Shown piece after piece: positions 19,600-53,246 of a stretch of DNA of 64,000 bases. Location: NCBI GenBank assembly GCA_900319035.1, contig ONMU01000003.1:1-64000 (forward strand), given 5' to 3'. The translations under genes were made by a program, and so were the position numbers. Source of the stretch: an uncultured Bacteroidales bacterium (lineage in GTDB: Bacteria > Bacteroidota > Bacteroidia > Bacteroidales > Paludibacteraceae). How positions within the stretch are numbered: the stretch's first letter is position 1; every line of letters begins with the position of its first letter. A model generated the notes under the pieces. It was given only the letters and a program-made list of their open reading frames with translations. It had not been told where the DNA came from and did not search any database.

Positions 19600-21171
19600 A
19601 TGGAATTAAGTGAACAAGAAATTGTACGCCGACAGAGTTTGCAGACGATGCGCGAAATGGGCATCGATCCCTACCCTGCGGCTGAGTATGAAGTAACCGG
19701 TTATTCAACCGAAATCAAAGCCGGATTTGTAGATGACGACAATGTACAAAGGGACAAAGTACAATGTACAAAGGAATGGCATACAGGAGACACCGTGCGT
19801 ATTGCCGGACGACTGATGTCCAAACGTATCATGGGCAAGGCTTCTTTCATCGAGATCCAAGACTCCAAAGGACGTATTCAAGTGTATGTATCGAGAGATG
19901 ACATACAAGCACCTGTAGCCGAAGGCGAACAGCCGACGACTGTAGAGCAACAGATGTACAACGTGGTATTCAAGAAACTGCTCGATATCGGCGATTTCAT
20001 CGGTATCGAGGGATTCGTTTTCCGCACACAGATGGGCGAGATCTCCGTACATGCCAAGAAACTGACGGTGCTTGCCAAGAGTCTTCGTCCGCTGCCGATC
20101 GTGAAATACAAAGATGGTGTAGCTTATGACGGATTCAATGATCCGGAGCAGCGTTACCGTCAGCGTTACGTGGACCTCGTGGTGAACGATGGTGTCAAAG
20201 ACACGTTCCTCAAACGCGCTACTATCCTGCGCACCATGCGTCAGGTGTTTGACGAGGCAGGTTATACCGAGGTAGAGACCCCGATCCTGCAGCAGATAGC
20301 CGGAGGTGCTTCGGCTCGTCCGTTCATCACGCATCATAATTCGCTCGACGTAGATATGTACCTACGTATTGCGACAGAGCTCTATCTAAAGCGACTGATC
20401 GTCGGTGGTTTTGAGGGTGTGTATGAGATCGGCCGTAACTTCCGCAACGAGGGAATGGACCGCAGCCACAACCCTGAGTTTACCTGCATGGAGCTCTATG
20501 TACAGTACAAAGACTACAACTGGATGATGAGCTTCACGGAGCAGCTGTTGGAGAAGATCGCGATAGCTGTGAACGGCACGACCAAAGTGCAGATAGGCGA
20601 CCATGAGGTGGATTTCAAAGCTCCATACCGCCGTCTGCCTATTCTGGATGCCATCAAAGAGAAGACCGGTCTGGATTTGGCTTCGATGAGCGAGGACGAG
20701 ATCCGCGTTGAGGCAAAGAAACTCGGTGTGGAAGATACCGAGCACATGGGCAAAGGTAAGCTCATTGACGAGATCTTCGGCGAGACTTGCGAGGGTTCGT
20801 TCATTCAGCCGACTTTCATAACCGATTACCCTGTTGAGATGAGCCCGCTGACGAAGATGCACCGCTCCAAACCCGGTCTGACCGAGCGTTTTGAGCTGAT
20901 GGTGAACGGCAAAGAGTTAGCAAACGCTTATTCGGAGCTGAACGACCCGATTGACCAATACAACCGTTTCGTAGAGCAGATGAAGCTTGCGGACAAGGGT
21001 GACGACGAAGCTATGGTCATTGATCACGACTTCATGCGCGCGTTAGAATATGGTATGCCGCCGACCTCGGGTATCGGTATCGGTATCGACCGTCTGGCTA
21101 TCCTCATGACCGGACAGCCAACCATCCAAGAGGTTCTGCTCTTCCCGACGATGAAACCGGAAGTCAATTAA
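19600..21171 (+). CDS. lysS: Lysine--tRNA ligase (class II) with an inserted repeat-coded segment
   Basis: The 523-residue product starts at MELSEQEIVRRQ, just after a clear promoter; the longer frame runs through the promoter. It charges tRNA-Lys. It has an N-terminal OB-fold anticodon-binding domain (about 40-160), then the catalytic core with motif 1 (AGYTEVETPIL), motif 2 (NFRNEGMDRSHNPEFTCME) and motif 3 (GIGIGIDRLAILMTG). Residues 48-59, NVQRDKVQCTKE, are encoded by a 34-nt repeat element and lie between KAGFVDDD and TVRIAGRLMS, where homologues as I recall them have only a short link. The insertion is in frame and all core motifs are intact. The same element follows the stop codon. Confidence 0.95.
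   Translation: MELSEQEIVRRQSLQTMREMGIDPYPAAEYEVTGYSTEIKAGFVDDDNVQRDKVQCTKEWHTGDTVRIAGRLMSKRIMGKASFIEIQDSKGRIQVYVSRDDIQAPVAEGEQPTTVEQQMYNVVFKKLLDIGDFIGIEGFVFRTQMGEISVHAKKLTVLAKSLRPLPIVKYKDGVAYDGFNDPEQRYRQRYVDLVVNDGVKDTFLKRATILRTMRQVFDEAGYTEVETPILQQIAGGASARPFITHHNSLDVDMYLRIATELYLKRLIVGGFEGVYEIGRNFRNEGMDRSHNPEFTCMELYVQYKDYNWMMSFTEQLLEKIAIAVNGTTKVQIGDHEVDFKAPYRRLPILDAIKEKTGLDLASMSEDEIRVEAKKLGVEDTEHMGKGKLIDEIFGETCEGSFIQPTFITDYPVEMSPLTKMHRSKPGLTERFELMVNGKELANAYSELNDPIDQYNRFVEQMKLADKGDDEAMVIDHDFMRALEYGMPPTSGIGIGIDRLAILMTGQPTIQEVLLFPTMKPEVN
19741..19774 (+). repeat. 34-nt GTACAAAG-type element inside lysS
   Basis: Units AATGTAC, AAAGGGAC, AAAGTAC, AATGTAC, AAAGG. It differs at two positions from 21170-21203 and at three from the complement of 51674-51707 in alaS. 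It encodes lysS residues 48-59 and has no stop word in the sense frames. Confidence 0.92.

Positions 21172-53246: not shown

Follow-up and report, generated by a model that had tools for sequence, protein, structure and literature searches.

The lysS–gpsA and alaS loci

The window, the whole 64,000-nucleotide stretch of contig ONMU01000003.1 that was analysed, comes from an uncultured member of the Paludibacteraceae and carries closely similar copies of a short repeat, here called the GTAC element, within lysS, within alaS and between lysS and gpsA (Table 1). Over 34 positions the lysS copy shows 2 differences from the spacer copy and 3 from the complement of the alaS copy, exactly as claimed in an earlier note on this sequence. 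The codon positions given there are also correct when counted from starts at 19600 (lysS) and 53246 on the complement (alaS), so that LysRS and AlaRS have in common a peptide, VQ-x-D-x-VQCTKE, read in the same frame; the gene names LysS, AlaS and GpsA are backed by NCBIfam. A scan of the window allowing up to 3 mismatches found exactly 3 copies, against 0.00 expected from 100 shuffles.

Table 1. Coordinates of the host genes, GTAC-family copies and other heptamer arrays of the window
Feature	Position	Strand	Remarks
lysS (lysine--tRNA ligase), host gene	19600..21171	+	NCBIfam NF001756/TIGR00499
GTAC element in lysS	19741..19774	+	in frame, codons 48-59, peptide NVQRDKVQCTKE
GTAC element filling the lysS-gpsA spacer	21170..21203	+	ends 2 bases ahead of the gpsA start codon
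gpsA (glycerol-3-phosphate dehydrogenase), downstream of lysS	21206..22195	+	NCBIfam
alaS (alanine--tRNA ligase), host gene	50607..53246	-	TIGR00344
GTAC element in alaS	51674..51707	-	in frame, codons 514-525, peptide KVQGDNVQCTKE
Diverged fourth GTAC-family copy, intergenic	4202..4231	-	degenerate-pattern scan
Other-family heptamer array	45238..45272	+	in a 440-aa ORF (alanine-racemase-like and HAD domains), peptide ILSTLNFQHSTLS, apparently in frame
Other-family heptamer array	46183..46213	+	in a short-chain dehydrogenase ORF, peptide KSQFSNTKYQT, apparently in frame
Long heptamer array (ATTTGAG, ATTTGAC and ATTGGAC units)	56269..56351	-	in a DUF4857 ORF, apparently in frame

The layout of the element is GTACAAA-GGGACAAT-GTACAAT-GTACAAAGG, with units of 7, 8, 7 and 7 bases in a 36-base repeat; TRF likewise reports a period of 7 at 21170-21202 with one unit of 8 bases. 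Its variable bases seem, by eye, to co-vary within a copy, giving A, C or G types. The ends, GTACAAAG and TACAAAGG, are not complementary and there is no terminal inverted repeat. An RNA structure as the unit of the family was considered and set aside, as the three window copies fold weakly (z of −2.1, −0.6 and −0.7).

The lysS insert sits in a segment of variable length that precedes the conserved IAGR strand of the fold. Alignment to PDB entry 3a74 places it in the stretch ahead of AGR, and in alignments to 2zze and 2ztg the alaS insert falls on a short turn within the editing domain. A structure model of AlaRS has strands at 511-515 and 525-534 flanking the insert, although this model is weak (mean pLDDT 59, residues 520-522 below 50); that of LysRS was unusable (mean pLDDT 38).

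Dispersal in the genome and the genus

A slightly degenerate 30-base pattern, allowed up to 3 mismatches, occurs at 65 places in the 2.48-Mb assembly (97 contigs), split 35 to 30 between the strands. The search for further copies proposed in the earlier note thus yields 62 beyond the original three, the diverged copy at 4202-4231 included, and its conclusion that copies must have spread is borne out by these 65 places. The reversed pattern, used as control, occurs at 0 places in the same 2.48-Mb genome, and chance similarity is rejected on this count as on that of the window.

At up to 2 mismatches the element is carried by 26 of 36 congeners, with up to 47 copies, and by 0 of 24 genomes taken one from each of 24 other genera of the order; the 27 positive genomes among the 61 scanned all belong to one genus. 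GTDB species representatives contributed at least 118 matching stretches. The 80 loci listed among these are all titled Bacteroidales, Paludibacteraceae or Bacteroidia; many of the titles mention cattle, sheep, goats or deer, or else the RUG series, which we take to be rumen, one mentions a pig, and others give no source. Close AlaRS and LysRS proteins likewise bear the family name Paludibacteraceae, which is applied to the genus on the strength of these titles and protein names. Carriage by phage was considered and rejected, viral contigs holding 0 exact matches to the pattern. All named genomes are metagenome-assembled genomes (MAGs) or uncultured isolates.

Copies at the same site in two species were found in 23 pairs. 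They are near-identical where the flanks are close, which indicates plain inheritance between close species, and several distant same-site pairs are no more alike than random pairs (mean 0.81). This pattern fits descent mixed with renewed insertion.

Spacers of the window hold 10 period-7 arrays in 6.1 kb (164 per 100 kb), those of 20 congeners 15 in 41 kb (36.3 per 100 kb, one array probably being a run of N) and those of 20 stretches from other genera 1 in 32 kb (3 per 100 kb). Periods of 4, 5, 6, 9, 10 and 13 are rare. Per 100 kb of spacer, period 8 reaches 66 in the window and 10 in the congeners, period 14 reaches 33 and 17, and period 11 reaches 16 and 31.5, nearly matching period 7 in the congeners (L316-L335). 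The corresponding period-7 values in coding sequence are 6.9 for the window, 3.6 for congeners and 0.9 for other genera, the last being a baseline equal at all lags. At 57858-57975, a spacer of the window contains a 41-base unit repeated 2.9 times, itself built from AT-rich 7-base units.

Position and frame of the copies

Copies were assigned to genes and frames by codon usage, using a model built from 37 long ORFs found in the window; on 33-codon pieces taken from these training ORFs it recovers the correct frame in 86% of cases, and the frame calls are accordingly statistical. For the own genome the set comprised 66 places that match either of two patterns with at most 3 mismatches: 28 lie inside genes, 8 are C-terminal, 4 N-terminal and 26 unassigned, many of these being spacers. 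The relatives' set comprised 197 copies with up to 2 mismatches, drawn from 29 best-match loci of the 61-genome scan and the 118 GTDB stretches, identical sequences being counted once; here 73 lie inside genes, 29 are C-terminal, 27 N-terminal and 68 unassigned.

Inside genes, 24 of the 28 own copies are in sense frame 0, 1 is in sense frame 2 and 3 are antisense; among the relatives' 73 the numbers are 62 in sense frame 0, 4 in other sense frames and 7 antisense (60, 3 and 6 of 69 when equal flanks are dropped). When the two sets are pooled, frame 0 accounts for 86 of the 91 sense copies within genes (p 6e-35 for an expectation of one third). A stricter caller gave 24/24 in sense frame 0 for the own genome (48 copies) and 64/74 for the relatives (197 copies), and a looser one put 35 own copies inside genes, 30 of them in sense frame 0. 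The reading inside genes is almost always [NDKEQ]VQxDxVQxTK[EDG] or a near variant. All six frames of the element, read by hand, are free of stop codons, so stops do not explain the preference; the three sense frames are similarly hydrophilic by a hand sum.

The hosts in the own genome identified by NCBIfam or Pfam include, besides LysS and AlaS, the proteins ValS, RsgA, TsaD, RimO, QueA, LigA and TopB, with CysS, a Mur-ligase/alanine-racemase fusion, UvrA, a DUF58 protein, a D-2-hydroxyacid dehydrogenase, a signal peptidase, IspD, an ABC auxiliary protein (GldG-like), GH43 and GH88 proteins and an SMC/RecN-like protein as further hosts. The GldG-like and RecN-like labels are our reading of Pfam domains and should be taken as putative. 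A 2-oxoacid:acceptor oxidoreductase beta subunit and a mannose-1-phosphate guanylyltransferase-like protein scored below curated cut-offs; NCBIfam gave no match for host L015 at the E-value applied, and Pfam none for host L102. Loci L197 and L353 have a second GTAC site (fsemyel-VxRDD) in an apparent rsgA, besides the first.

Gene starts and gene ends

Copies at gene starts are used differently: 21 of 31 are antisense, whereas within genes this holds for 10 of 101 copies (Fisher p 6e-10). The 21 are spread over all three antisense frames (14, 5 and 2), and they read as hydrophobic, leader-like stretches such as LCTLYFVTLS and FVLCTLLLCT, often preceded, by eye, by a positively charged start. 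A loose lipobox pattern fits 8 of the 21 (0 of the 3 own ones), and a few of the antisense gene-start copies (L151, L200 and L219) look unlike leaders. One antisense copy inside a gene lies within a hydrophobic stretch of a glycosyltransferase (L008). Orthologous-looking TPR proteins of two species (L013 and L184) have antisense GTAC copies as leaders, of A type in one and C type in the other; and on the minus strand of L007 (1304-1379) two copies stand 46 bases apart at a gene start, where the ATG codons come from the second copy and the bases preceding it (MYKGTMYNVQR).

At gene ends, the tail fits a simple C-terminal sorting-signal pattern in 19 of 29 sense C-terminal copies of the relatives and 4 of 8 own ones, with the element mostly directly ahead of the sorting-signal-like motif in frame 0; in 4 copies of the relatives and 4 of the own genome the protein ends in the frame-1 reading of the element itself (YEGQMYDVQGRRVK and the like). 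We take this putative sorting motif to be that of type IX secretion. A search with TIGR04183 matched 16 places, 7 over the cut-off (one only jointly with its neighbours), and was not used as evidence because 13 of 14 control genomes also matched, one of them over the cut-off. The C-terminal motif matches vary in synonymous bases across the genus, and the DNA of three gene ends (L104, L109 and L110) fits the 7-8-7-7 layout. That fit makes such gene ends a possible source of the GTAC family, or the motif may itself derive from the repeat.

Turnover of the LysRS and AlaRS loops

Comparison with close relatives, advised in the earlier note, found the GTAC element in that lysS loop at 0 of 29 other congener loci and in that alaS loop at 0 of 25 other readable ones (4 were unreadable); at up to 4 mismatches, copies appeared elsewhere in the fetched stretch at 2 other lysS and 2 other alaS loci. 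The test by which the earlier note was open to refutation, a search for the same peptides at both sites in close relatives, thus turned out in its favour. Across 30 lysS loci of the genus, the own one included, the segment from TG[YHF]S to IAGR measures 24 to 49 residues. The window's genome is the only one of the 30 with the GTAC peptide there; the others are short or contain different repeats, for instance a 21-base unit three times in tandem (L261), units of 9 bases (L244), the heptamer TCAGCAA (L246) or a palindrome (L240). The alaS loop is as short as GTLGNVRVLDTK in congeners and elsewhere holds heptamer arrays of AAAATGG, CAATGGA, AATTCAG or ATTTACG (4 of 30 loops unparsed). Over the whole of lysS and alaS, the two loops account for 2.4% of the bases and contain 8 lag-7 arrays, with 6 more elsewhere. 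Of these 6, one is a run of N and another an upstream extension, both counted among the ten arrays of alaS; the remaining four fall 2 in the LysRS segment before QQMYNVVFKK and 2 in the AlaRS segment between HI..ELP and VDA.

Protein searches gave about 8000 matches for each enzyme. Among the best 120, a GTAC-type loop is present in 34 AlaRS (19 unparsed) and in 0 LysRS (2 unparsed), one LysRS having a shortened likeness, KVQGIKE; the window's lysS copy is therefore seen in its own assembly only, and the alaS copy recurs elsewhere. The same best 120 LysRS show 85 distinct loop readings, six unparsed ones being counted as one. Another repeat family, with the unit GEMSASLNDAN repeated up to five times, is also found in the LysRS loop. 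Within a group of 22 AlaRS at 96-99% identity, again among the best 120, four loop types occur (14/3/3/2): the GTAC type in 14, ELKIKNSKFKII in 3, [TV]LSLQNSAI in 3 and ELRIQNSEF in 2. Judged from these sequences, turnover of the loops is fast.

These records bear on whether the inserts could be artefacts of assembly or binning, a concern raised by the MAG or uncultured origin of the named genomes and by the confinement of the lysS copy to its own assembly (0 of the 120 best-listed LysRS). An artefact is hardly credible given that the alaS segment occurs in 14 AlaRS entries of 97-99% identity among the best 120, 11 of them with a named source, that the uvrA and ispD sites also recur in other records and that the frame is kept.

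The other host sites behave in the same manner. Orthologues of 24 host segments were sought in four congeners and 85 of 96 sites were recovered (L101 and L102 were left out; L099 found none). A different heptamer array occupies 14 of these 85 sites and the GTAC family 6, one of the latter, L403, being doubtful at four mismatches. There are 16 lag-7 arrays at the site and 3 at other positions within 160 bases, and at-site arrays at lags 4, 5, 8, 10 and 11 number 0, 0, 1, 1 and 0. Palindromes of the CCCTCCCCTCAAGGGAGGG type or near forms occur in orthologues of the DUF58 protein (two genomes), the GldG-like protein, CysS and host L015, and an RSQSELND-type palindrome in those of TopB (two genomes) and the guanylyltransferase; short forms are found at many sites (GKKG in LigA 3/4, EGN in ValS 4/4). 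The site-specific lag-7 arrays and the palindromes indicate that the same loops are filled by unrelated repeats. Insertion borders in the loops of the four congeners are too divergent to define a target-site duplication.

Since many unrelated heptamer arrays fill the same loops, and one AlaRS loop shows a tandem extension, VQSDKVQSDKVQSDKGQSTK, each loop might have grown its own 7-base array from a seed by local slippage, the likeness between copies being convergence. The earlier note had argued against independent slippage from the internal GGGAC irregularity shared by the three copies, and the shared 8-base unit within an otherwise 7-base array does speak against it: the 7-8-7-7 layout recurs with the same odd unit at 65 places, in genes of unrelated sequence. 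Slippage is very unlikely for the GTAC family and may hold for some of the other arrays.

Relation to known repeats

The nearest known system is that of the palindromic elements of Rickettsia and Wolbachia (RPE, WPE). PMC3767692 and PMC10969869 describe these as short dispersed repeats in unrelated ORFs that keep the frame and are solvent-exposed; around a given locus, orthologous genes may carry different groups or none. The GTAC element is likewise found in unrelated ORFs without a break in frame, 28 of its 66 own places being inside genes; however, RPEs are palindromic and about 100-150 bp long, whereas the GTAC element has 36 bases, 7-base units and weak folding. Because of this mismatch in length and palindromy it is not filed as an RPE. 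It differs further in belonging to a gut lineage and in also supplying leader-like stretches.

The cyanobacterial STRRs are another class of heptanucleotide repeat. The TAACTGA repeats of Beggiatoaceae, present also in five Bacteroidetes, share the tandem 7-base period; PMC4679880 describes many spacer copies, largely intergenic, whereas the GTAC element is scattered as a complete 7-8-7-7 unit and stands in frame within genes. The 25-residue tandem repeat domains of PMC2996958 resemble it in being mobilised within genomes and coding for protein segments, many of which are in membrane-targeted proteins, but the GTAC element makes single insertions in housekeeping enzymes. REP sequences and MITEs are short and of many copies, as here, where the second family is a small folding palindrome; unlike MITEs, the GTAC element has no terminal inverted repeat. 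The literature searched, as titles and abstract openings, contained no in-frame elements of this kind in Bacteroidota.

A model for the spread of the element

The earlier note had gone on to propose an active process that places repeats in genes without breaking frame. Its premise that copies spread stands; a frame-respecting process is not supported. The gene-start copies are mostly antisense and occupy all three antisense frames, and a second, palindrome family is read in four frames inside genes. This family folds and occurs at 51 places in 11 of 31 genomes; of the copies examined at 30 loci fetched from the 51 places, 25 of 31 lie inside genes, in four frames (9, 6, 7 and 3), two of the 25 being one site in two species. 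The palindromes share some sites with the GTAC family (the DUF58 protein, the signal peptidase and the GldG-like protein), and the LysRS loop readings SPQGRE and LPSREG fit, at the protein level, two frames of the palindrome.

Antisense use at gene starts, the four frames of the palindrome and these two LysRS readings favour a frame-blind spread plus selection. We therefore propose, with a probability of roughly two in three, that the 36-base repeat, which in one genus of gut bacteria is found in frame in dozens of genes, many of them encoding housekeeping enzymes, was scattered blindly and then selected for the peptide it adds. The repeats crowding the spacers would be the donors; copies would be inserted where a short sequence matches, and most would be lost. 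A limited number of loops, several of them beta-hairpin tips, would tolerate an extension of 10-12 residues and so be hit repeatedly, and recombination between strains would exchange loop versions. Since VQ-xDx-VQ could lengthen a hairpin, the preferred frame would prevail; the sequence suggests that the xDx turn between the two VQ pairs forms a small one. Several insertion sites look like hairpin tips, in AlaRS from the alignment to known structures and the weak model, and we take those of TsaD, RsgA, IspD and others to be such tips from their structures. Against a filter of this kind stands the fact that frame 0 takes 86 of 91 despite similar hydrophilicity, so that a filter acting by tolerance alone would have to make the other two frames much worse.

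Alternatively, the frame could be fixed at insertion by a short target match such as [A/G]A[T/G]-GT that tends to fall at codon borders. The residue before the insert is N, K, D, E or Q in 23 of 23 sense frame-0 copies, and uninserted orthologues often start with V or L at the site. Such phase-directed insertion nevertheless seems unlikely, as the left flank is mostly the same in spacer copies, so that those bases may belong to the element, and as antisense and other frames occur. The peptide VQxDxVQxTKE might instead be useful in itself, for example as a binding or processing tag, with selection spreading the element in one frame. The single frame of 86 of the 91 sense copies inside genes and the abundance of translation and DNA-repair enzymes among the hosts agree with a peptide function, which is rendered quite improbable by the unrelated peptides or short sequence in orthologous loops of congeners, by the antisense use of the same DNA at gene starts and by the 38 of 66 own places that are unassigned or at gene ends.

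We put forward one broader reading as a speculative possibility: a loop-rewriting process of the genus in which fixed loops of essential proteins are overwritten repeatedly, on the time scale of strains, from a common stock of repeats, the GTAC stock perhaps stemming from the 3' ends of genes for secreted proteins. If this were true, housekeeping enzymes would carry interchangeable surface modules.

The GTAC element provides another, apparently independent bacterial case in which repeats become protein segments within housekeeping enzymes, and the many sequenced congeners allow gain, loss and replacement to be traced site by site. Loop length and identity in such proteins are poor phylogenetic markers. 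One and the same repeat gives hydrophilic loops in one reading direction and hydrophobic, leader-like stretches in the opposite one, offering a direct view of non-coding DNA turning into protein.
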